Source of the DNA: Alphaproteobacteria bacterium
GTDB lineage: Bacteria; Pseudomonadota; Alphaproteobacteria; Rhodospirillales; Magnetovibrionaceae
Assembly (NCBI GenBank): GCA_015231605.1
Contig: JADGBG010000011.1
Coordinates: 1-46,806, forward strand
Length of the DNA stretch: 46,806 bases
Direction: 5' to 3'
The notes under the pieces: generated by a model
Told to the model about the DNA's origin: nothing
Databases searched by the model: none
What the model saw: only the letters and a program-made list of their open reading frames with translations
Shown here: piece by piece, positions 35,453-46,806 of the stretch
Numbering within the stretch: the first letter of the stretch is position 1
Layout: each line of letters starts with the position of its first letter
Program-made: the position numbers and the translations under genes

Positions 35453-35781
35453 GCCCAGACCGGCTCTTCACCGCCTACCAGCGACGCCAGACCCGCCGGA
35501 TCCGTCAGCACCACCCTGCCCCGTCCGGTCTTTGCCCATCCCCGCGCCGCGAACCGGCCCAGCCATTTGGCCACCACCTCGCGGGTGGCTCCGCTGAAAT
35601 TGGGCCCGGAATGACATTTGACGCAACCGATGCGGCGAAACAGCGCCATGCCCAACCCCAACCGCCCGGTCCAGTCAAGGCGTGGCGCGAGGTCCTTGCG
35701 TATCAACGTCGCAAGGACCCCCGCCGCCACGGCGACGGCGGCGAGGCTGTCCAGCAGGATAGGGGTTATGCCGGGGGCCAT
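35449..35781 (-). CDS. Small protein with a Crp-like DNA-binding end, possibly a gene remnant
   Basis: A 110-aa frame with two unlike halves. Residues about 65-105 (SGATREVVAKWLGRFAARGW, then GRVVLTDPAGLASLV) match the second helix and wing of the Crp/FNR DNA-binding domain. The front has a hydrophobic stretch (about 8-25) and then GMALFRRIGCVKCHSGPNF, which contains CxxCH and resembles the heme c site of cytochrome c peroxidase-type proteins. No nucleotide-binding domain exists. It may be a truncated Crp-type regulator, a chimera from a deletion, or a real small protein. The chosen ATG (35781) lies 13 bp after the DUF4242 gene. Confidence 0.45.
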
Positions 35782-35794
35782 GGCGCGGGTTCCG

Positions 35795-36106
35795 TCACGC
35801 CCCGGCCGGAGCAAGCGGGACGTCAAATACGTTGGGCGTGAGGGTGCGCACCTCGGTGATGGAATCGTAGGCCAGCCCGACTTTTTCATGGGCGCGTGCC
35901 ACCGCCTCGGCGTTGGGCACAAGCGTCACGCAGAACGCGCGCCCGGCGGCCGCGCCGACGTTGAGCTGCAGCGAAATCACGCCTTCTTCGGCGCAGGCGG
36001 CCTTGTACTGTTCGTAAAAGCCCCGCAAATCCGCTGGCGAAATGCTGGCGGGAAACGTATCTTTGCCGGCGTCGTGGGTGTCGATGAACATTTTCATGGC
36101 TTGCAT
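35795..36106 (-). CDS. DUF4242-like small protein
   Basis: A 103-aa protein (MQAMKMFIDTHDAGKDTFPA and then EGVISLQLNVGAAAGRAFCV, ARAHEKVGLAYDSITEVRTL). The ferredoxin-like repeat pattern and the FCV/AxxxHxxxG segment fit DUF4242, a group that includes proposed metal-binding proteins. The ATG at 36106 has GGGAGA at workable spacing; an internal ATG at 36097 is possible. It is divergent from trxC across 102 bp and precedes the Crp-like fragment on the same strand. Function unknown. Confidence 0.65.
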   Translation of the reverse strand: MQAMKMFIDTHDAGKDTFPASISPADLRGFYEQYKAACAEEGVISLQLNVGAAAGRAFCVTLVPNAEAVARAHEKVGLAYDSITEVRTLTPNVFDVPLAPAGA

Positions 36107-36208
36107 GGGGTGTCTCCCGTTAAGTTGCCTCGTGACGACACCCTAGGCCGCGTTCCCGGCGCGGTCTGTATGCGCGGATACACTTCGCGAACCTTTTCGG
36201 AGACCGTG

Positions 36209-36643
36209 ATGAGCGAAACCTGCCAAACCGCCTGCCCGCATTGCTCGGCCGCGCAACGCATCGACAAGTCCGTCCCGGTGGCGGTGGCGAAATGCCATGA
36301 CTGTGGCGGGCACCTGTTCGACGGACATCCGATTTTGCTCACCGGCGAAACCTTCGCCCATCATCTCGCCACCAACACAATCCCGGTGGTGGTCGACTTC
36401 ATGGCCGACTGGTGCGGGCCGTGCAAGGTGATCGCGCCGGAAATCATCAAGACCGCCAAGGCGCTGGAACCCCATGTGCGGTTCGCCAAGGTGGACACCG
36501 ACGAGGACCAGAAACTGGCCGGCCACAACGGCGTGCGCGGTTTTCCGACCCTGGTGATCTACAAACACGGCCACGAAGTCGCCCGCCACGCCGGCGCCAT
36601 GTCCGCCGCACAGATCCAGGCCTGGCTGAAACCCCATCTCTGA
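36209..36643 (+). CDS. trxC: Thioredoxin 2 (TrxC type)
   Basis: A 144-aa thioredoxin with the N-terminal zinc finger of the TrxC type (CPHC near residues 9-12 and CHDC near 30-33). The thioredoxin fold follows with the active site WCGPC (DFMADWCGPCKVIAPEI) and the cis-proline segment GVRGFPTLVIYKHG. It reduces disulfides in oxidised cytoplasmic proteins. GGAG lies 8 nt before the ATG at 36209; an upstream in-frame extension is not supported. It is the last core gene before the integrated element. Confidence 0.93.
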   Translation: MSETCQTACPHCSAAQRIDKSVPVAVAKCHDCGGHLFDGHPILLTGETFAHHLATNTIPVVVDFMADWCGPCKVIAPEIIKTAKALEPHVRFAKVDTDEDQKLAGHNGVRGFPTLVIYKHGHEVARHAGAMSAAQIQAWLKPHL

Positions 36644-36681
36644 TCCGCAAACAAAAAATCCCGCAAGGCGGAGCGGAAAAG

Positions 36682-36730
36682 AATGGCGCACCCGACAGGA
36701 TTCGAACCTGTGACCTCTGCCTTCGGAGGG
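36682..36730 (-). repeat. att repeat 1: 3' half of tRNA-Arg(CCG)
   Basis: On the minus strand this reads anticodon loop CTCCGAA, stem GGCAG, variable AGGTC, T arm ACAGG-TTCGAAT-CCTGT, acceptor CGGGTGC, G, CCA. The bases where CTGCC and the 5' half should be (36731 onward) read differently, so it is a fragment, not a working tRNA gene. It marks the junction of chromosome and element 1. Confidence 0.85.
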
Positions 36731-36832
36731 GTGGAGCTATCGTTATCTGGCGTTATCCTGAATTACTATTCAATTGAAAATAAACGATAAAAAAATCTGT
36801 CTTCATTCCGAATGGGCTGGTATATGCTGTTT

Positions 36833-36863
36833 GGTGATTGCTGGGTGATTGCTAGCAATCACC
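36833..36863. repeat. Integrase arm-type or operator repeats, left end
   Basis: GGTGATTGCT occurs at 36833-36842 and 36844-36853, 11 bp apart, followed directly by its inverse AGCAATCACC (36854-36863), making a perfect 20-bp palindrome. The block ends 25 bp before the integrase start, so it may both bind integrase and control its gene. The same unit pair occurs near the right end of the element. Confidence 0.65.
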
Positions 36864-36888
36864 GATTTGGCGAGGCAAGGACCGGCGC

Positions 36889-38112
36889 GTGAAGCAGAAA
36901 ATCACCAAGAAAGTCGTGGACGGAGCCATGCCCGACGGGCGCGTGCGGTTCCTCTGGGATACCGAGTTGCGTGGCTTCGGGGTGAAGATCACGCCGACCG
37001 GCAGCAAGGTTTACGTCATCCAATACCGCACCGGCGGACGGGGCAGTCCGACGCGCCGTTACACCGTCGGCAAGCACGGCACGATTTCCACTGATAAGGC
37101 GCGCAAGACGGCTCAGGCGCTGTTGGGCGAAGTGGCGAACGGGCACGACCCGCAACAGCGCAAAATGGCGGAGCGGGCGTCGTTGACCGTCTCCGCCCTG
37201 TGCGATTTGTATTTGGCCGAAGGCTGCGCCACCAAAAAGGCCTCGACCATCGCGACGGACAAAGGACGCATCGCGCGCCACATCAAGCCCCTGTTGGGTC
37301 GGCGCAAGGTCAAGGATCTGACGCCCAACGACGTGCGCCGTTTTATGCAGCAAGTGGCCCAGGGCAAAACGGCGGTGGACGAAAAAACCGGCAAGCGCGG
37401 GCGCGCCCGCGTGACCGGCGGCAAGGGCGCGGCCACGCGTACCGTCGGCCTGTTGGGCGGCATCCTTTCGTTCGCCGTTTCCGAAGGCATCCGCCCGGAT
37501 AATCCGGCGCGCGGCGTCAAGCGCTATCCCGACACCCGGAAGGAACGCTTCCTATCGCCCGATGAACTCGCCCGCTTAGGCGAAGCCTTATCGACCAGCG
37601 CGGAAAACCCATACGCCGTGGCGGCGATCCGCTTCCTGTTGTTGACCGGGTGCCGCAAAGGGGAGGTTCTGTTCCTGACCTGGCCGGAGGTGGATTTCGC
37701 TTTCGGCTGTTTGCGGCTTTCGGACAGCAAGACCGGGCAGAAGATCGTCCCGCTCGGCCGCGCGGCGTTGGACGTGTTGGACGCCCTCCCCCGCCTCGAA
37801 GGCAACGATCACGTCTTTCCCGGCGAGAAGGAGGGCCGCCCCCTGGTCGGCCTGCCGAAAATCTGGAACCGCATCAAAACCCGCGCCGGGTTGGATGGCG
37901 TGCGCTTGCACGACCTGCGTCACAGCTTCGCCTCCGTCGGCGCGGGTTATGGGCTGAGCCTGCACGTGGTCGGCAAACTGCTGGGCCACAGCGACCCGAA
38001 GACCACGGCGCGCTATGCGCACATCGCCGACGATCCCGCGCGCACCGCCGCCAACCATATCTCCGCCGCCATTGAGGCCGGGCTGTCGCAGCCGTTTGAA
38101 ACCGTACATTGA
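36889..38112 (+). CDS. int: Tyrosine recombinase (phage/island integrase)
   Basis: A 407-aa integrase starting at GTG with AAGGA upstream. An N-terminal arm-binding domain (DUF4102-like; MKQKITKKVVDGAMPDGRVR and GFGVKITPTGSKVYVIQYR) and a core-binding domain (about 80-190) precede the catalytic domain. Catalytic residues are Arg in LLTGCRKGEVL, HDLRH in LHDLRHSFASVGAGYG, His in LLGHSDPKTTARYAH and Tyr in the same segment. All are intact, so it should be active. It lies 158 bp inside the left att repeat, pointing inward, as is usual for tRNA-targeting islands. Confidence 0.95.
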   Translation: MKQKITKKVVDGAMPDGRVRFLWDTELRGFGVKITPTGSKVYVIQYRTGGRGSPTRRYTVGKHGTISTDKARKTAQALLGEVANGHDPQQRKMAERASLTVSALCDLYLAEGCATKKASTIATDKGRIARHIKPLLGRRKVKDLTPNDVRRFMQQVAQGKTAVDEKTGKRGRARVTGGKGAATRTVGLLGGILSFAVSEGIRPDNPARGVKRYPDTRKERFLSPDELARLGEALSTSAENPYAVAAIRFLLLTGCRKGEVLFLTWPEVDFAFGCLRLSDSKTGQKIVPLGRAALDVLDALPRLEGNDHVFPGEKEGRPLVGLPKIWNRIKTRAGLDGVRLHDLRHSFASVGAGYGLSLHVVGKLLGHSDPKTTARYAHIADDPARTAANHISAAIEAGLSQPFETVH

Positions 38113-38137
38113 CGCGATGTCTTCTATAGGATACATT
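38109..38137 (+). promoter_or_regulatory. Candidate promoter of the toxin-antitoxin pair, leaderless
   Basis: TTGACG (38109-38114, overlapping the integrase stop) and TACATT (38132-38137) are 17 bp apart. The toxin ATG begins 7 nt after the -10 box, the usual start of transcription, and no ribosome site precedes it. The message is probably leaderless. Confidence 0.5.
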
Positions 38138-38143
38138 CATTAA

Positions 38144-38434
38144 ATGATTGAAGTCCGCCAGACGGATAATTTTGCCAAGTGGTTCAAAAGCCTGAAAGAC
38201 CGTCAGGGCCGCGCCCGTATTCAAGCGCGGATCGACCGTGCCGGCCTTGGCAACTTTGGCGATTGTGAACCGGTCGGCGGCGGGGTTTTAGAAATGCGTA
38301 TCCATTTCGGCCCCGGATATCGGGTCTATTTTGTCCAGCGCGGCGCGGAAATTGTTGTGCTGCTGGCGGGCGGTTCGAAACGAACGCAGAGCAAGGACAT
38401 CCTCAAAGCAAAAACGCTGGCGGACAACCTGTAG
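38144..38434 (+). CDS. higB: RelE/ParE-type toxin of the HigB-like (Gp49) group
   Basis: A 96-aa toxin (MIEVRQTDNFAKWFKSLKDR, IQARIDRAGLGNFGDCEPVG, VLEMRIHFGPGYRVYFVQRG, LLAGGSKRTQSKDILKAKTL). This is the RelE/ParE fold of the addiction-module killer group, with the basic residues (MRIHFGPGYR) expected to contact mRNA on the ribosome. The antitoxin follows 9 bp later, so the order is toxin first, as in HigBA. It would stabilise the island. Confidence 0.9.
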   Translation: MIEVRQTDNFAKWFKSLKDRQGRARIQARIDRAGLGNFGDCEPVGGGVLEMRIHFGPGYRVYFVQRGAEIVVLLAGGSKRTQSKDILKAKTLADNL

Positions 38435-38443
38435 GAGATCAAC

Positions 38444-38749
38444 ATGGCGCCAAAAACAAAAACAAAAACCCGAACCAAAACCCGTCCTTGGGACAGCGCC
38501 GAACATCTGGAAAGCAACGAAGATATTGCCGCGTATCTGGATGCCGTGCTGGCGGAAAATGACCCGGCCTTGCTCACCCACGCGCTGGGTGTTGTCGCCC
38601 GCGCGCGGGGCATGACGGACCTTGCGCGACAAACCGGCCTTGGCCGGGCCAGTCTGTACAAGGCCCTCTCCGCCGAAGGACACCCGGAAATCGCAACCGT
38701 GATGAAGGTTTTGGATGCCCTTGGTGTGCGCATGTCCGTATCGGTTTGA
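38444..38749 (+). CDS. higA: HigA-like antitoxin
   Basis: A 101-aa antitoxin. A Lys/Thr-rich start (MAPKTKTKTRTKTR) precedes HLESNEDIAAYLDAVLAEND and a helix-turn-helix (MTDLARQTGLGRASLYKALS, then EIATVMKVLDALGVRMSVSV). This is the antidote family paired with Gp49-like toxins. It should bind the toxin and the shared promoter. AGGAG precedes the ATG at good spacing. A small hairpin (AAACCG/CGGTTT near 38767) follows and may end the unit. Confidence 0.9.
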   Translation: MAPKTKTKTRTKTRPWDSAEHLESNEDIAAYLDAVLAENDPALLTHALGVVARARGMTDLARQTGLGRASLYKALSAEGHPEIATVMKVLDALGVRMSVSV

Positions 38750-38833
38750 CGGAGAAATGACGACACAAACCGTAGTCGGTTTTGACAAGCCGCCGCGTAA
38801 TCTCCTGAACGAGACGGGTATTAAATGCACCGT

Positions 38834-38855
38834 CACCGTAACCCCACCGTAACCC
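38834..38855. repeat. Perfect tandem repeat of an 11-mer
   Basis: CACCGTAACCC occurs twice without spacing in the gap between the antitoxin gene and the HEPN-like gene. Tandem 11-mers place both copies on one face of the helix, which would suit a regulator site. The role is unknown. Confidence 0.6.
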
Positions 38856-38912
38856 TAAACTTTCAATCAATGGAAACGCTGGAGCGGCTGGCGGAAGGTC
38901 ATCGAAGGACTA

Positions 38913-39587
38913 ATGGATATGGGAAATACACCGCAAACAATTTGGGAAGACGAAGACTACGTTTATATTCCTGAAGAACTCTTCAAATGTCTGCCGCCGG
39001 AATATCGTGAAGTTGCAAAAGCGCGTAAGCAGCAGGGTAGCGACGTCTTGCAGATCGCAGACAAGGACATCAAAAGCCTTATTAACTTGGCCAACGCTAT
39101 CCCGACAACGTCAAGTTTGAGCTACATTTATCATCGGCTACGGACTGCCAAGTTCGACAATACTGCTGAGTCCCTCATGGAGCTAGAAATGCTGACGACG
39201 GCGTTCGTGGTGACTTACTCCCGGTTATTCGTAAAGGGAAATGGTGCAGTCGGGGTTTCAAAGAGCCAAATACCTGCACATCTACAAGATGTTCACGACG
39301 ATCTAATCAGCATCCGCCACAAGCGTTATGCTCACAATGACAGGCATGAATCGATTGATAGTGGCATACAGATTGATTTTGATGAGACGGAATTCCACGT
39401 CAATTTGCAAATGAACTTAGGCTATTACGTGGGAGGCAGAAACGAATGGGAAGAGCTTGTAACCTTCCTCGATGCGCATATGCACAAACAACTTCAGAAA
39501 ATACTCCATCGGCTGAAGGAAAAGACCGGCTATGAATGGAAATGCTCTGCTGGTCCAGCGCCCGATTGGGTGGGAAAGTACAGTTAG
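38913..39587 (+). CDS. HEPN-like protein, island cargo
   Basis: A 224-aa protein, all-helical in the middle, with RHKRYAHND at about 135-143, an R-x5-H pattern followed by AH. This is the signature of HEPN-type domains such as those in AbiU2-like and related proteins, some of which are RNases. The rest (WEDEDYVYIPEELFKCLPPE at the start, LVTFLDAHMHKQLQKILHRL near the end) is not recognised. ATG codons at 38913 and 38919 are both possible; AAGGA is better placed for 38919. It stands alone, 163 bp after the antitoxin gene. A phage-defence role is inference from location and domain. Confidence 0.6.
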   Translation: MDMGNTPQTIWEDEDYVYIPEELFKCLPPEYREVAKARKQQGSDVLQIADKDIKSLINLANAIPTTSSLSYIYHRLRTAKFDNTAESLMELEMLTTAFVVTYSRLFVKGNGAVGVSKSQIPAHLQDVHDDLISIRHKRYAHNDRHESIDSGIQIDFDETEFHVNLQMNLGYYVGGRNEWEELVTFLDAHMHKQLQKILHRLKEKTGYEWKCSAGPAPDWVGKYS

Positions 39588-40064
39588 CTCCCGCTATTCC
39601 ACGTCGGGTGTTACCCGCAGTGCAACGAAACCGGCTTTCTCAAGCTGAAAATGTCTTCCACGACCCCATCAAATCACCCCCTTGCCCCCCTTGCGAAGGG
39701 GACAAAAGCCCGGCAAACTGCGGCTTATCACGGAAATCGGAAGACGGATATCAGGTCTCGTTTGAGGGAACGTCTTACGACGGCAATTCTCCCACACCTG
39801 TCGCTACACATAGCGGGGCGGCCAAAAACGTTGAATTTATGCGGGTTTCAGGCCGTAAACGCCAGGGGCGATTCACGCCTACAAATGTAGGACGCCGAAA
39901 GCGCCGATTTTGCAATGCGTTGACGGCGGACGTAAGACAAACGACTACGACAACGAGGCGCGGTGCCTACGCTTGTCGTACACGCCGTCCCGATACGGCT
40001 CATTCTTCGTCCTCCTTCAAGGTCAAGAACGAACCAAACTCTTAACAATCGTCCTGGGCCACTT
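39588..40064. other. Gene-free stretch in element 1
   Basis: No convincing gene in 477 bp: open frames here have improbable composition and no ribosome sites. It holds a C-rich run (39670-39700), a short palindromic unit CGCCTACAAATGTAGGACG near 39868, and one copy of a 24-bp repeat (39967-39990) also found at 41477-41500. It looks like degraded or repetitive DNA. Confidence 0.5.
39967..39990. repeat. Dispersed 24-bp repeat, copy 1
   Basis: CTACGCTTGTCGTACACGCC and following bases match 41477-41500 at 21 of 24 positions in the same orientation. Together the two copies bracket the 402-aa gene. Confidence 0.55.
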
Positions 40065-41273
40065 TTAGGTGGTCAGGTCATTCCTTTCAAGAATTTCGAC
40101 CAGCGCCCGCTCGATATTTTCGAGTCGATATTCGATGCTGTCCTTGGGGTCATTAAGATTCATAAAATACTGGCCCTCGTCAGCAAACCATTGAGGATGC
40201 TGCTCGCGGTGTCGCTGCTCGAAAGCCAGGTACATGTTCGGGATGTCGTCCGCGGCGAAGAGGCTGCGGGCTGGGGCATCCCGGCAAACGCGCGAAAGTG
40301 CGCTTCGATTTTCCATGGAATGCCACAGATTTTCATTTTGAAGGGCGGCGTCAACAAATTCTTCACCATCCAGTTCGAGGAATGAAGGCCAGTCCTTATA
40401 GGCGGAAGGATTGAATTTTTGATAGAAAGCCATGCGAAGCGCTGCGTCATCTGACTTGCGAAGAAGCTCGTCGTCACGAATAAGGCCAGCGATGCAGACA
40501 CGAACGTTGAAGGAAAAGCTGCGTTGGTGCCACTGTGTTGGCTCTTCGACCTGCTCATCAATCTGCCAGCGCTCGAGAACTTCATCTATGTTGTCGTAGC
40601 TGTATGGTTGCTGGCAGTTTAGTAAGAGTACCCAGATAGCCTTCGCCCATTCTTGGGTGGCCGGAACCGTCTTGGCAAGTTCCCAGGCAGCGTAAAATGG
40701 TTCGTTGTAGGTATATTCATTAAAGCCGTCAATGTAGAGGCTTTCGTAGGGTGTCTTGAGGCGCTCGTTATTGTGGAGGGCATAGATGAGAAGCCGAAAT
40801 CGATCATCGTCAAGCCCCTCGAAGTCACCTGCACGTTTGAAGAAGTTAGTGAGAAATTCACTCGGCAGGTACCTGTTACAGAGAAGGGTTTCAACTGTGA
40901 AGAACGGCCCTTCCTTCAAGATGTCCAGCGCTTGCTGAATTCTGATGCCTGCATTGGGATTGGTAAGGGCGGCAAGTCGGGTGCTGGTGTCGCCACGGTC
41001 ATAGACGCGCTGTATCATTTTTATATCTGTGCCGAAGCGAGCAAGGCCATGGTCGACGACGGGGTCGTTACGTCGCCAGAGAAGGTATTCGACAAGACGG
41101 CGATTTTCCCCTCCGCGCCAATAGCGCCATAAGCCGCTGTACGCGCCTTCGTCGGGCACCTTCTTGTTGTCTTGAAGCCAAGCGTAGACGGCGTCTGGCG
41201 CGGCCTTCGATAAATAGCCAGCAACAATCCGTTCATTCGTGCCAGCCCGATAGTTATAGCTAAAACTTGCCAC
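40065..41273 (-). CDS. Unrecognised 402-aa protein, island cargo
   Basis: A 402-aa soluble protein with no signal peptide or membrane helix. It is rich in Trp, Tyr and charged residues and mostly helical by appearance: YSGLWRYWRGGENRRLVEYL, DHGLARFGTDIKMIQRVYDR, LLIYALHNNERLKTPYESLY. The spaced helices suggest a HEAT/TPR-like superhelical fold, which is a guess. No catalytic motif is obvious. The gene is convergent with the HEPN-like gene and bracketed by a 24-bp repeat. Size, cargo position and isolation resemble single-gene defence or toxin cargo, but there is no direct evidence. Confidence 0.65.
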   Translation of the reverse strand: MASFSYNYRAGTNERIVAGYLSKAAPDAVYAWLQDNKKVPDEGAYSGLWRYWRGGENRRLVEYLLWRRNDPVVDHGLARFGTDIKMIQRVYDRGDTSTRLAALTNPNAGIRIQQALDILKEGPFFTVETLLCNRYLPSEFLTNFFKRAGDFEGLDDDRFRLLIYALHNNERLKTPYESLYIDGFNEYTYNEPFYAAWELAKTVPATQEWAKAIWVLLLNCQQPYSYDNIDEVLERWQIDEQVEEPTQWHQRSFSFNVRVCIAGLIRDDELLRKSDDAALRMAFYQKFNPSAYKDWPSFLELDGEEFVDAALQNENLWHSMENRSALSRVCRDAPARSLFAADDIPNMYLAFEQRHREQHPQWFADEGQYFMNLNDPKDSIEYRLENIERALVEILERNDLTT

Positions 41274-41440
41274 TGTCCCATACCTTCGATCAAATATCCT
41301 GACTGTATCCGTATAAATAGAGTTAGTCGACGCGAAAAGTGGAACCTACGCACTACGACGAAGTAGCAATTAAATCAATTTCGCCCCATGTCTGACGTCA
41401 GCGTCTATGGGGCAAGTTAAGATGATTGCATGACGGTGGG

Positions 41441-41500
41441 CGTAGGCCAAATGCCTACGGCGGCAGGGGGCAGCGCTTACGCTTGCCGTACACGCCGCCC
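41441..41500. repeat. Hairpin and second copy of the 24-bp repeat
   Basis: CGTAGGC-CAAAT-GCCTACG (41441-41459) is a 7-bp stem. It is followed by the second copy of the dispersed unit (41477-41500, TTACGCTTGCCGTACACGCC and on). The pairing of GTAGG/CCTAC palindromes with this unit occurs at both places, so the two probably belong to one repeat family. Confidence 0.5.
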
Positions 41501-41527
41501 GGAGATGGAGTGCAGGGGGGGTAACGC

Positions 41528-41548
41528 GGTGATTGCCAGGTGATTGCT
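41528..41548. repeat. Integrase arm-type repeats, right end
   Basis: GGTGATTGCC (41528-41537) and GGTGATTGCT (41539-41548) are 11 bp apart, the same unit and spacing as at 36833 and 36844. They lie 46 bp inside the right att repeat. This symmetry supports one element between the two att copies. Confidence 0.65.
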
Positions 41549-41594
41549 GGGGCCGTTTCCGCCCCGAAGGGCCGAACGCTAACCCATTGAAAGA

Positions 41595-41643
41595 AATGGC
41601 GCACCCGACACGATTCGAACGTGTGACCTCTGCCTTCGGAGGG
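41595..41643 (-). repeat. att repeat 2: 3' half of tRNA-Arg(CCG) with a compensated T stem
   Basis: Same 49 bp as at 36682 except for two bases. The T arm reads ACACG-TTCGAAT-CGTGT in place of ACAGG/CCTGT: both differences are the two sides of one base pair. The 5' half of the tRNA is again absent (41644 onward reads TGCGATTTCG). It is therefore a junction between two elements rather than an intact tRNA gene. Confidence 0.85.
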
Positions 41644-41836
41644 TGCGATTTCGAATTAAAGTGCAATTAGATCAATGCGTTGTTCGGGCGCTGTTGTGCT
41701 TTTTTCCGAATAACGGGGATTAAACGGGATTGGAATGGAGTGGGGGTGGCACAGTTTTGGCACACCCTTGAGTGCTGTGTTTTATCAAAATCAAGACGGC
41801 CCTGAAATACACAACGGGTCTGTGCATAAAGAAATA

Positions 41837-42808
41837 TCAATATTTTGTAATCTTGGGTCCAACATAAACGATATACAATTCGTCTTTTGCAGTGACAGGC
41901 CACGAGAAATGAATTCTAAGTTGGGGCCACTTTACCTTTCCATGCCACGGACAAAAAATGTCCTCGCCTGACGTTCTGGGGTGAGGAAATGTCATTTCAT
42001 TTCTGAAATCGTCCTTTTCTGTAACTGACGAATCAGAGAACCACGACTTACCGCCTCCCTTCCCCCCTTTGTCTGCAAAAAAATCGCGATATAGGCGATG
42101 CCCTTCGGCGGTTCTTTTTCCGTCAGGGTCAAAACAACCTTCAAACTTGCTCAGCACGTCCAGTAGAGCAACAATTCGTCCTGCTGCCCCAGGGACGAAA
42201 GGGTGTCCATGTAGAGGTTGAAAGCAGTTGTCGGTAAATTTTAAGTTTGGGAATCGTGCAACGACCATATTTTGAAGGTCTTGCCAACATTGCAATGGCG
42301 CGGGGGCAGACTTCAGAACCGTGTCGAATAGGCCTTCGCTGAAATGGTTGTGCACTTTTATGTCATGACTTGTCTCATCATCATGCATCCAAGTAACTTT
42401 AATAGGTGATTCCTGCCACATTGAGGGCGTCAAACTCACCACATGACATTCATTACCCCGGAATGTTCTCATGGCCGATTCACCAATGGCGGTGTCAGTG
42501 ACCATTTCATCTGATACGACCATGTATTCATCAGGACCGTGAACTCGCTCGTCTTCCCAGAATGGCCCGGTCCTAGTTATCCAGCTGGTGAATGCTAACC
42601 GTTCTTCATGTTCGAAGTGTTGTATTGCCTGTGAAACCGTCATTTGGGGGCCGACGGCGGCATTCATCAAATTTCTATGGCTAAACAGTTCGCGGCCATA
42701 TTTAGCTGCGAGTGTCCGCATTTTCATAAGCTTACCAACGGCCTCCTTGAAGGCCTCTACATTAGGAAACTGCCCGTGTAACGACAGGTCGTTTACCAGC
42801 ACTTCCAC
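41837..42808 (-). CDS. Third gene of the DUF262-AAA operon, unknown function
   Basis: A 323-aa soluble protein I cannot assign. The N-terminal half is helical (FPNVEAFKEAVGKLMKMRTL). The C-terminal half has HNHFSEGLFDTVLKSAPAPL, HPFVPGAAGRIVALLDVLSK and a striking end: MTFPHP, FCPWHGKV, LRIHFSWPV, LYIVYVGPKITKY. The Cys/His-rich segment could bind metal. I chose the GTG at 42808, one base after the ATPase stop and behind GGGGGGATTAAG; an upstream TTG (42829) would overlap that gene. The near-zero spacing implies translational coupling and a shared complex. It may be the effector or target-sensing part of the system. Confidence 0.75.
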   Translation of the reverse strand: MEVLVNDLSLHGQFPNVEAFKEAVGKLMKMRTLAAKYGRELFSHRNLMNAAVGPQMTVSQAIQHFEHEERLAFTSWITRTGPFWEDERVHGPDEYMVVSDEMVTDTAIGESAMRTFRGNECHVVSLTPSMWQESPIKVTWMHDDETSHDIKVHNHFSEGLFDTVLKSAPAPLQCWQDLQNMVVARFPNLKFTDNCFQPLHGHPFVPGAAGRIVALLDVLSKFEGCFDPDGKRTAEGHRLYRDFFADKGGKGGGKSWFSDSSVTEKDDFRNEMTFPHPRTSGEDIFCPWHGKVKWPQLRIHFSWPVTAKDELYIVYVGPKITKY

Positions 42809-42809
42809 C

Positions 42810-43946
42810 TTAATCCCCCCAACCAGCAAAGTAATTCACATCTTTATCAAATTGATCGAAGAACCCCCTGGGCCAAACATCAATATTGCCTTTGCTATCA
42901 AGTTGCGGACTGACGACCTGAGCTCTTCCTTCAGAACGAGGTGCGAAAAAATGAATGGCAACTTTTTGCGGCGGCATCCCCGATCGAACCACTCTGCGGA
43001 TGCCATTCAACACGTGGTCACTGTGGGTTTCTATGATGACTTGCACCCCTGCTTGAGCAACTTCAGCAAGAAACTGTCCCATTAACGCCTGTCCAGCTGG
43101 ATGAAGATGGACCTCGGGATTCTCTATAAGAATGATATCGTCTTTCCCCGATGACAGCGCGGCAACAATAATTGGCAAAACCTGAGTAAGCCCAAAGCCC
43201 ACGTGAATCGGGCGATGGAAACCGGTGTCGTCAGCAGTACGCAAACCAAGCATAACGGCGTTCGCTTGTGGTACAATTTCAACAGTTAGGGAGCAGCCAG
43301 GAAAGAACTTCTGCATTCTCGCCTCAACTTGGCGAAGCCGGGTTGGGGGTATGCCGTCTATTACCAATTCATCCAACACGACTTCATCACGCCCGGAATG
43401 CAGAACCCCAATAGCATGTTCGCCAGAAGGGCCCACGGACGTTGCAACTTGAGGATCGTCGTGTAGGTAAAACTCTCTTGGTCCAACCCGTTCTGCAGTC
43501 AAGTATGTTAAATTGCGAATGTGATTGATGAAAGACGTGATTTTAATGTCGGTGTCTCTCGGAAGCATGTGCTGTAGCTCCTCGGGAGCTGACTTGGTCG
43601 TTTGATTAATGGTGACCTCATCCACCACCATGGACATTTGCGACCGTTCGCCAGAAAAACGCCAGCCAACTATTCCCTCGTCATCAGCCAGACCGATTTC
43701 AAACGCGAACCTGCCATACACCTTGTCGACCACATCGGCGACCGCCCCAAGCTTGATTGAATCACCATTCAGCACAAGCCTCGTCGACCATTCATGGTTT
43801 CTCATCGTTTGATGCAAAAGCACCAGCCCTTGCAAAACGCTTGATTTTCCGGAGGCATTTGCACCTGACAAAAGGGTCAGGTCTGCTATAGGCAGTTTGA
43901 GCGTTTCGAAACACTTAAAATGCTGAAGACGAATTGTCCTAAGCAT
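42810..43946 (-). CDS. AAA ATPase with C-terminal DUF3696
   Basis: A 378-aa SMC/ABC-like ATPase of the type found in OLD-like and other defence systems. Walker A is at 28-36 (GANASGKSS), the signature-like GFGLTQVLPII at 250-260, Walker B ILIENPEVHLHP at about 272-283, and the switch ETHSDHVLNGIR at 306-317. The tail (about 325-372; KVAIHFFAPRSEGRAQV and NIDVWPRGFFDQF) is DUF3696. There is no TOPRIM nuclease, so another subunit must act. The ATG at 43946 lies inside the end of the DUF262 gene (8-bp overlap) with GGAG upstream. Confidence 0.9.
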   Translation of the reverse strand: MLRTIRLQHFKCFETLKLPIADLTLLSGANASGKSSVLQGLVLLHQTMRNHEWSTRLVLNGDSIKLGAVADVVDKVYGRFAFEIGLADDEGIVGWRFSGERSQMSMVVDEVTINQTTKSAPEELQHMLPRDTDIKITSFINHIRNLTYLTAERVGPREFYLHDDPQVATSVGPSGEHAIGVLHSGRDEVVLDELVIDGIPPTRLRQVEARMQKFFPGCSLTVEIVPQANAVMLGLRTADDTGFHRPIHVGFGLTQVLPIIVAALSSGKDDIILIENPEVHLHPAGQALMGQFLAEVAQAGVQVIIETHSDHVLNGIRRVVRSGMPPQKVAIHFFAPRSEGRAQVVSPQLDSKGNIDVWPRGFFDQFDKDVNYFAGWGD

Positions 43947-45036
43947 TCAAAATCTCCGCTACCAAGTTGTTTACGTATGCAAATCTATCCCTAACGCGAT
44001 TAACCTGACTTGTACCAAGTGTCACAGAGGCGTGAAAATCTTCATCAATTAGAAGATCAGCAAATCTGGTTTTTATTTTTTCTTTCTTTGCTTCGACGAT
44101 GCTTTCCGGCACCTTTGACAAACTTGTAGACATAACGTCCCAGATAGATGCGTTGAAAACACTCCTGGCTGCCTCGTCGGAATAATATTTCCTGAAAGCG
44201 TGCCTGCCGAAAATAATTAAATTATTTCTTAGTCCTGCCCTAAATTCGATAGATAGGTTCTCTAATTCTTGTGGAGAAAGCCTATTCATTTTCTCTAAGG
44301 CACTAGCAAGAAAGGCGTCCATATCGCCCCTATAACTGACAAGCGGCAAAAGTTGAAAGGCGCAGAAGCGATTAACCATTTCACGATCACGCATCGTGTC
44401 GGAACGTAAACTCCTACCTGTTGCTGTTAGGAAAATGTCTGTTTTGGATTCATCCTTCAGGAATTTTGTGGCCCCTCCCATAAACAAACAGTTGCGCATT
44501 TGCTGGCGGGTCAGCGGCACACCACTGTTTACGCGTTCGAAGATATCTAGCAACGCCTTAGGGGGGACTTTCGCGTCGATGATATAGAGGATTAACGGGC
44601 AGTCCTCGACTCGGTTTTGGAGCTTAGGCGACAAATCACTGAAAAATTTTCCGTGCAATTCATCATGTTCCGGAAGTCTCAAACGGTGGTTGTTCTTAAC
44701 GAAACGCTGGAATGTCGACAGGCGCTGTAATCCATCGACAACCACCATCTTACCAACACTATTCTCTGCGAGATAAAAGACGGGCAATGGGATGCGCATC
44801 AATACGGATTCTATAAGCTTGCTTTGTTTGTCGTCGGGCCAAATGAAATCCCTCTGAAAGTCAGGATCCATCTGGAAAACCCCTTGATCGATTCTTCGCA
44901 ACACCTCATGCACGGTTCGGGGTTCATTTCGAATCAGCATCGTATCAATAGGATAGTCAGCCCAAGACGTATCCTCGTCCACATCGAGACCTTCGATCTC
45001 ATTATCTTTGTCGTTTTCGTTAGGCTGCGAATTCAT
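43939..45036 (-). CDS. DUF262 protein (ParB/GmrS-like), first gene of the operon
   Basis: A 365-aa protein. The DUF262 domain has FQMDPDFQRDFIWPDDKQSK (about 55-74), LIESVLMRIPLPVFYLAEN, and the catalytic-type motif VVVDGLQRLSTFQRF with DGLQR at 101-105, then LLDIFERVNSGVPLTRQQMR. In GmrSD this domain binds and hydrolyses nucleotides to drive a DUF1524 HNH nuclease. Here no DUF1524 or HNH is present; the protein ends in helices unlike it. I chose the ATG at 45036 because GAGG lies upstream; a longer start at 45099 is possible. The 8-bp overlap with the ATPase gene couples them. Confidence 0.88.
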   Translation of the reverse strand: MNSQPNENDKDNEIEGLDVDEDTSWADYPIDTMLIRNEPRTVHEVLRRIDQGVFQMDPDFQRDFIWPDDKQSKLIESVLMRIPLPVFYLAENSVGKMVVVDGLQRLSTFQRFVKNNHRLRLPEHDELHGKFFSDLSPKLQNRVEDCPLILYIIDAKVPPKALLDIFERVNSGVPLTRQQMRNCLFMGGATKFLKDESKTDIFLTATGRSLRSDTMRDREMVNRFCAFQLLPLVSYRGDMDAFLASALEKMNRLSPQELENLSIEFRAGLRNNLIIFGRHAFRKYYSDEAARSVFNASIWDVMSTSLSKVPESIVEAKKEKIKTRFADLLIDEDFHASVTLGTSQVNRVRDRFAYVNNLVAEILNA

Positions 45037-45443
45037 CAGCACCTCACGTTGAAAAATTAAGCAAGCCCCATGATATTCATATTGGGAAAGGGTGTTCAAC
45101 TTAGCGCGAAGAACACCTTAAAGGCTGAATAATTACGTATTGGCTATTCCAGCGAACACATGGTGTATCTCTTACTGTTTTCAAATCCCCAATCCTCTTG
45201 GGGCTTATCCAATACCTAGAAGTAGTGTTACCACGCCGTGTGGGTTATGTGCAGCCTCAAAATCCGCATCTGCATCAGGCACATACCTTATAATTGCCTA
45301 CACACATTCAATGCGATAGCAGAATTATCATGGGGTATATCCCACAATAATAGAACAGTTTGATTTACAGCACAGCTCTTCTGATATGGCGTTGGCCTAT
45401 ACAATTTTCCGAAGAGCGCATTCCTGGGGCCGTTGGTAACAAT
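45037..45443. other. AT-rich gap holding the operon promoter
   Basis: No gene is seen in 407 bp. Base composition is AT-rich. It separates two minus-strand genes, so it should hold the promoter of the DUF262 operon and the end of the ART-like transcript. I see no clear terminator hairpin with a T-run and no confident -35/-10 pair. Confidence 0.45.
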
Positions 45444-46091
45444 TCAGGAGCCCCCCCATTTTACTTGACTAGAAAAGAAATTGATCCAGGCAGTGTACCC
45501 TGGATATTCCCCAACAAGTTCATAGAACATGCCATCATATCCCTGTTTGAGAAGGGCTTTGCGTAGAACCCTGAATGCCCGGACGTGGTTGAGGCCACGT
45601 TCAACATCATCATTCTCATACTTTCCACAAAGTCTTTTGATCTTGCGGTAGGTCATAAAGCTTAAATGGCCATTCGCACGGCACATATCCGCTAGATGAT
45701 CAGCGGTATGGTTGTCGTTGCAATCCCATACCTCCAGCGGATTTTTGATGCGAAGATAGACGGGATAAATATGCCCTGAAGTAATTCCTTGATTCAAAAA
45801 AGCCCCGTCTGTTTGCGAAAATGTGCGAAATGCATCTGGATCAAACCATGTAAACGTTGCCATCCCCAAGTTCCGCCGGGACAATTGCACACCGGCATTG
45901 GCAACGAGGGAAACGGAAAAGTGCGTAAATGGCCGGAAACTACTTATAGTGTGGCATGTGCCGTGAAACTGCATTAATGGCTTATCTGGCGTCGTTTCGA
46001 AAACTTGTGATCCTTTAAACCATTCAGCAAGCGGTGCATGACGAAGCGCGAACAATTCACTAACGATTTTTTTTCTTCGAGACCGAAACAT
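45444..46091 (-). CDS. ART-PolyVal-like ADP-ribosyltransferase
   Basis: A 215-aa protein resembling ADP-ribosyltransferases of the ART-PolyVal type. It has FHGTCHTISSFRPFTHFSVS (HGT at 43-45, the NAD-binding His motif), FLNQGITSGHIYPVYLRIKN with PLEVWD after it, and an end QGYDGMFYELVGEYPGYTAW then INFFSSQVKW, the usual closing strand where a Gln/Glu would complete the site. It would modify a protein or nucleic acid using NAD. It starts 32 bp after the methyltransferase gene on the same strand, so the two may be one unit. Alternative starts are possible. It could be a phage-derived modifier or a defence effector. Confidence 0.65.
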   Translation of the reverse strand: MFRSRRKKIVSELFALRHAPLAEWFKGSQVFETTPDKPLMQFHGTCHTISSFRPFTHFSVSLVANAGVQLSRRNLGMATFTWFDPDAFRTFSQTDGAFLNQGITSGHIYPVYLRIKNPLEVWDCNDNHTADHLADMCRANGHLSFMTYRKIKRLCGKYENDDVERGLNHVRAFRVLRKALLKQGYDGMFYELVGEYPGYTAWINFFSSQVKWGGS

Positions 46092-46123
46092 CTGCCACCA
46101 GCACTGTCATTACATCTGTAAGG

Positions 46124-46806
46124 TCATAATTTTCCAGACACGAATCTGCTCTCAACCTTCTCCGCCTGACCGAGCAAGCACAGCGTGGTGAGGATTTCTT
46201 CGACTTTCTTTTCTGCGCGCTTGCCTTGGGCGAAGCGGCGCGATAGGTCGGCGGCGGTGATGGCGGTGCTTTGGGATTCCAGCACGGCGCGGATGGCGGC
46301 GACTTGTTCGGGCAGCTTGGTCGGCAGCTTGGGCTTGGCCGCACCTTCTTCGGGCAAAGCCAGATCGGCTTCGATCTGCTGGGCTTTCTTGGCGGAGGTG
46401 GCTTCCTTGGGGGCTTGGAATTCGGGGCGCAGCCACCGCACCTTGCCCTCAGCCTCTTCCGCCGCGCGTTCATGGTTAAGCGCCACCAGCCGTTCAAGAA
46501 TGGCCTCGTCGCTCAAATCAGCGGGCCAGCCATAAGCTTCGGCCACCGCAACGTCCAATTCATCGTGAATTTGTTTCAGCACACCAATAAGGCCCGCGTC
46601 ATAGACATCCTTATCGGCATCGGTGAGCACGGCTTTCGCGCGCACCTTTTCCAACACGTTATACATGCCGGTCATGGTGAGCTGCTTGTGCTCGGCTATT
46701 ACGGCCTTGCGGTGCGCATCCAACCGATCGCCCAAATCGCGAATGTGTGCCAGCTGCTTGTCGCTGGCGTCGGGGAAGGGGAAGGGGTCGAAGCATCGCG
46801 TTGTAT
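46124..46806 (-). CDS. C-terminal part of a class I DNA methyltransferase (MmeI-like), cut by the window end
   Basis: The frame is open to the right edge. The first visible residues, TRCFDPFPFPDASDKQLAHI, are the FDPFPFP segment that follows the methyltransferase domain in MmeI-like and related large DNA methyltransferases. Downstream are the helical target-recognition-associated tail (YNVLEKVRAKAVLTDADKDV, ELDVAVAEAYGWPADLSDEA) and a C-terminal winged-helix-like region (TAADLSRRFAQGKRAEKKVE). Such proteins modify host DNA and may carry a nuclease at the missing N-terminus. GC content is higher here than in the neighbouring operon. It supports a defence island. Confidence 0.8.
   Translation of the reverse strand, partial: TTRCFDPFPFPDASDKQLAHIRDLGDRLDAHRKAVIAEHKQLTMTGMYNVLEKVRAKAVLTDADKDVYDAGLIGVLKQIHDELDVAVAEAYGWPADLSDEAILERLVALNHERAAEEAEGKVRWLRPEFQAPKEATSAKKAQQIEADLALPEEGAAKPKLPTKLPEQVAAIRAVLESQSTAITAADLSRRFAQGKRAEKKVEEILTTLCLLGQAEKVESRFVSGKL

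Follow-up and report, generated by a model that had tools for sequence, protein, structure and literature searches.

Attachment at the edge of the anticodon loop defines the class A sites of islands in tRNA genes (PMC4383910; PMC8371274), while anticodon-centred attachment to a tRNA gene is sublocation I of Williams (2002), as cited in the same two papers. Islander class A islands carry a tyrosine integrase near the element end and, at the opposite end, a displaced 3′ tDNA fragment that faces the same way; the element-borne 3′ half completes the gene, identity to the tRNA runs from the anticodon loop, and tandem arrays occur. The locus described here is alike in the integrase, the displaced fragments, the start of identity and the tandem arrangement, and probably also in the completion of the gene; it differs in that the 3′ halves in its array are different natural alleles, which would record how the T stem and base 73 were replaced one time after another. 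The tandem ssrA islands of Dehalococcoides are, in the available portion of their description (PMC3146451), similar in that several elements are piled up at a single RNA gene, a displaced 3′ end repeat accompanying each of them, and in that a consistent sequence difference separates the repeats from the working gene; they differ in employing a serine recombinase and in their repeats, which are 20 bp long and cut within the T loop, and that portion describes no pairing-preserving T-stem replacement. No description of precisely this T-stem exchange was found in the literature searched, which was chiefly open-access. The mechanism considered below is of an ordinary and well-known kind, and the present instance of it is well resolved.

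The window analysed here (46,806 nucleotides) is the entire contig C47 of a draft genome (G000) of 3.18 Mb in 213 contigs, with alphaproteobacterial relatives. It contains two direct repeats of 49 bp, att_a (36682-36730) and att_b (41595-41643), which on the minus strand both represent tRNA-Arg(CCG) from about position 31 through CCA, with G73, and whose sole mismatches are 36698/41611 (G to C, plus strand) and 36708/41621 (C to G, plus strand). In the minus-strand reading 41611 and 41621 are tRNA positions 62 and 52, the partners of one T-stem pair, att_a being ACAGG-TTCGAAT-CCTGT (G52-C62) and att_b ACACG-TTCGAAT-CGTGT (C52-G62); the preliminary description had pointed to this swap, and it was confirmed in both copies at the spacing given there. 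ARAGORN detected no tRNA gene in the window, and neither 49-bp copy is an intact tRNA gene, both being displaced 3′ halves, of which att_a is the original one. When compared with these halves, the T arm of the intact tRNA-Arg(CCG) of this host (C174:1-77, minus strand) was found to carry the unswapped ACAGG/CCTGT. The 49-nt pieces folded alone gave no signal above shuffles, an expected result given that such a piece is only half a tRNA. The chance that two substitutions in 49 bp fall on both members of a single T-stem pair, of which there are five, and leave it Watson-Crick paired is about 0.0014 (5/1176 x 1/3, our own arithmetic), which rules out random decay, as the preliminary description had also argued. 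The draft and fragmented state of the assembly might favour a sequencing error, one of the outcomes that were said to undermine the swap, but other genomes, G001 among them, have the identical att_b sequence within intact tRNA genes, which rules out an assembly error; with the exact natural allele present elsewhere, a chance double mutation or a sequencing error has a negligible probability.

C52-G62 in att_b is a common natural allele of the tRNA-Arg(CCG) T stem. Joined to att_b, the 5′ half of the host gene matches in 77 of 77 letters the tRNA-Arg(CCG) that works in G001, which belongs to the same family, and the exact att_b 43-mer was found in 102 stretches of other public genomes, nearly all alphaproteobacterial, many of these stretches being intact tRNA genes. 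A survey that took in 162 genomes from the order and class, with 189 sites, yielded 22 distinct T-stem sequences, with 52:62 as the most variable pair (G-C 86, A-U 54, C-G 48, non-pair 1); the single non-pair stands against 96.7 expected were the two sides independent, and the compensation thus represents ordinary covariation of a working tRNA. One intact tRNA-Arg(CCG) (G479:C34:73386, L286) has A53-U61 where G53-C61 is nearly universal. The compensation could alternatively serve a protein-binding site and not RNA folding, if the integrase needed the T-arm dyad as DNA, and the T loop is indeed used by some integrases (PMC4383910). We regard this as highly improbable, as covariation of this pair is seen in about 120 intact tRNAs, most of them away from element 1, one integrase family lies beside halves with different T arms, and halves with a broken dyad exist. 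The diversity alone is no proof of element-driven replacement, since the control tRNA-Ala(CGC) of the same family is also T-stem-diverse with a constant 5′ half, its pattern being nearly the same (3′ part 0.083 versus 0.095; 5′ part 0.015 versus 0.004).

The host flank of the locus is represented in the window by an ORF (35618-36643, plus strand), whose C-terminal part matches relatives' thioredoxin genes (68% for that of G011). About 40 bp from its stop lies att_a, with a host-type terminator-like hairpin and T-run on its 3′ side (about 36650-36672), as the original gene end would have. The order in G011:C20 is thioredoxin, displaced tRNA half, islands, tRNA-Arg(CCG) and genes matching C174; the thioredoxin end of the window and C174 match these flanks at 74-79%, and this synteny places the intact C174:1-77 at the far end of the array. 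On its other side the window is continued by contig C13 in reverse: the two contig ends share 4 nt, in frame, and split a gene encoding an MmeI-like type IIL restriction-modification enzyme, whose C-terminal part lies at 46124-46806 (minus strand) and whose remainder lies at about C13:5095-7934; in three plasmid records both parts lie side by side within a single gene, with 1-3 codons between them. The best reading of the locus is a three-element array lying between thioredoxin and tRNA-Arg(CCG), in which three alleles are spread over four 3′ ends; from the continuity of C47 and C13, the half on C13 and the gene on C174, these read ACAGG, ACACG, GTGAG, ACAGG. The array is incomplete at the unassembled junction of C13 and C174, and the other end of C13 would, on this reading, lead to C174.

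The left part of element 2 (41644-46806) carries the Menshen defence genes (41837-45099, minus strand), NsnC at 41837-42829, NsnB at 42810-43946 and NsnA at 43939-45099, with PADLOC E values of 2.8e-114, 5.1e-101 and 1.7e-114, respectively. All three genes of the described NsnABC system are present, adjacent and in order; the difference is that here they are cargo of a tRNA-targeting element, with a predicted anti-phage role. Beyond them an ORF (45444-46091) has a weak ADP-ribosyltransferase-like Pfam match. The remainder of element 2 on C13 includes its integrase, int2 (C13:3265-4275), and a displaced tRNA-Arg(CCG) 3′ half with GTGAG/CTCGC and A73 (C13:3180-3225), and int3 of element 3, whose right end is unassembled, follows at C13:2089-3039. 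A tandem repeat of about 75 nt encoding PEGTEGYKDVALAAVQSDGDALQYV units occupies the contig end (C13, L262, 1-384) and may be the cause of the assembly break. The motif TTTCAATGACTTA and its variants CAATGGGTTA and CAAGGGGTTA recur 5-10 nt past CCA at tRNA-Arg(CCG) island ends at many loci; in this array the motif (CAATG..TTA) is found at att_b, as CAATGGGTTA (41580-41589, minus strand), and at the C13 half (L262 3232-3241), and is absent at att_a. It is a candidate integrase site common to different integrases.

Element 1, about 4.9 kb in length (36731-41594), is situated between att_a and att_b and encodes a tyrosine integrase, int1 (36889-38112, plus strand; Phage_integrase, Pfam, 3.6e-23, and Arm-DNA-bind_3), followed by a Gp49-like/HI1420-like toxin-antitoxin pair (38144-38749, plus strand). 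Relatives of this integrase were not found in viral contigs, in only two of which the att sequence had matches, and the best integrase matches were 55% in plasmid records and 32% in phage records. Two direct copies and one inverted copy of GGTGATTGC on the integrase side (36833-36863), and a direct repeat of it at the opposite end (41528-41547, plus strand), are candidate arm-type integrase sites. Imperfect direct repeats of 78 nt (74%) are present at 39921-39998 and 41431-41508, and both are also present in the corresponding element of G108. The latter genome belongs to another family and harbours the same element in the same layout (G108:C18; 95% identity over 2.1 kb), with the GGTGATTGC repeats kept at both ends. 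Its integrase end adjoins an ACAGG/CCTGT half, while its other end, 85% identical over 145 nt to the att_b-side end of element 1, adjoins an intact tRNA with GTGAG/CTCGC, the regenerated gene lying on the same contig as the element. The layout in G108 thus indicates that the att_b-bearing end of element 1 is the tRNA-completing end.

Taken together with the G001 tRNA, this layout makes it probable, at roughly 0.7 by our estimate, that att_b is a displaced tRNA-Arg(CCG) 3′ half, a natural C52-G62 allele that arrived with element 1. In the proposed history, tyrosine-integrase elements would enter the tRNA-Arg(CCG) gene by a crossover at the anticodon loop, each incoming element supplying the tRNA positions from about 30 to CCA and so completing the gene, while the previous 3′ half would be pushed to the far side of the incoming element. 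Starting from an original gene with ACAGG/CCTGT next to thioredoxin, element 1 would have carried ACACG/CGTGT (att_b) in its attP and displaced the original half as att_a; att_b would then have completed the working tRNA until element 2 displaced it by bringing GTGAG/CTCGC with A73, and element 3 would have brought the present ACAGG/CCTGT of C174. Elements are known, in general, to insert in tandem at att junctions, and the insertion order is not fixed by sequence, so that element 1 might instead have entered after element 2, into the displaced half by thioredoxin, in which case att_b would be an element-borne natural allele that at no time served in a working tRNA of this lineage. The half sites do retain the anticodon loop core that such an entry would use, but they are without one arm of the anticodon-stem dyad, the same element end adjoins an intact tRNA in G108, and att_b is intact and undecayed, resembling recently working ends; we consider late entry unlikely.

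The crossover position in the proposed history is deduced from where identity ends: of 52 distinct displaced halves, 51 first match the tRNA between positions 28 and 33, at the edge of the anticodon loop. Were the crossover instead near the T loop or the 3′ end, the T arm by the element's left end would be a decoy copy, the host would have kept ACAGG throughout, and att_b would be the copy of element 2. The finding that ACAGG lies alongside the integrase end of element 1 in both G000 and G108 counts against our preferred reading to the extent that a crossover near the CCA end also predicts it, and a hybrid half in G006 with its join in the T loop is likewise in favour of that alternative. In addition to the anticodon-loop limit of identity in nearly all halves, the left end of element 2 (41650-41764, about 115 bp) argues against it, for this end recurs next to tRNA-Arg(CCG) halves in other genomes, and its partner is ACACG in G000 but GTGAG in G016, where that allele is the working one, and a one-base derivative of GTGAG in G015. 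The halves of G008 and G009, moreover, hold the allele that is working in G007, G011, G012 and G017, the working copy of G008 and G009 being atypical. A crossover near the T loop or the 3′ end is accordingly judged quite improbable.

The arrival of att_b with element 1 has parallels at other islands. An island in G642 has a half with ACAGG (A73) and a working gene with ACACG (G73), which is the same swap as between att_a and att_b; G367, the only genome of its order, has ACAGG (A73) and AGAGG (G73), again with pairing kept; and in G008 and G009 the halves carry ATGAG and the genes TCGCG. All of the replacements in G642, G108, G367, G008 and G009 keep pairing. The T arm and the element end are not strictly linked, given that the 95%-identical elements of G000 and G108 have different 3′ halves (ACACG and GTGAG, respectively) and that two copies with different T arms in G009 have a common right flank; exchange beyond simple integration, that is, reassortment, therefore also occurs. 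The G006 hybrid (G006:C26:3092-3139, L254) is a displaced half in which TCGCG is combined with CTCGT, and G106:C85:16057-16098 is a displaced tRNA-Arg(CCG) 5′ half (positions 1-42), 10 kb from the intact gene.

The preliminary description had offered two origins for att_b, a once-working 3′ end of a tRNA or a copy that an element had brought from a host whose tRNA-Arg differed, and had suggested that it remained under selection for folding. Both origins are probably right, the former from the place of att_b at the end of element 1 whose G108 counterpart completes the tRNA, and the latter from the agreement with the working tRNA of G001, and they are probably successive steps, not alternatives. 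Continuing selection on the leftover copy is not supported: mispaired T stems occur in 3 of 52 distinct displaced halves and in none of 120 distinct intact genes, and mispairing that is confined to displaced halves argues against it. The swap would preserve pairing because both alleles originated in tRNAs that needed to function.

In itself the compensatory swap falls within ordinary tRNA variation, and it is the layered record of changing tRNA ends that is the notable part. Whether elements have repeatedly block-replaced the tRNA-Arg(CCG) 3′ half (T stem and base 73) in these alphaproteobacteria, such that part of a core tRNA is horizontally inherited and the tandem displaced halves form a stratified record of once-working alleles, is in our judgement evenly balanced; in view of the similarly diverse tRNA-Ala(CGC), a general element-driven turnover of tRNA-Arg(CCG) is put forward only as possible. 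If block replacement is general, tRNA phylogenies must allow for T-stem and base-73 differences, and island finders that require identical repeats must tolerate them. Displaced tRNA ends can serve as ordered samples of the past working tRNA, in which the identity of an allele points to the donor lineage.
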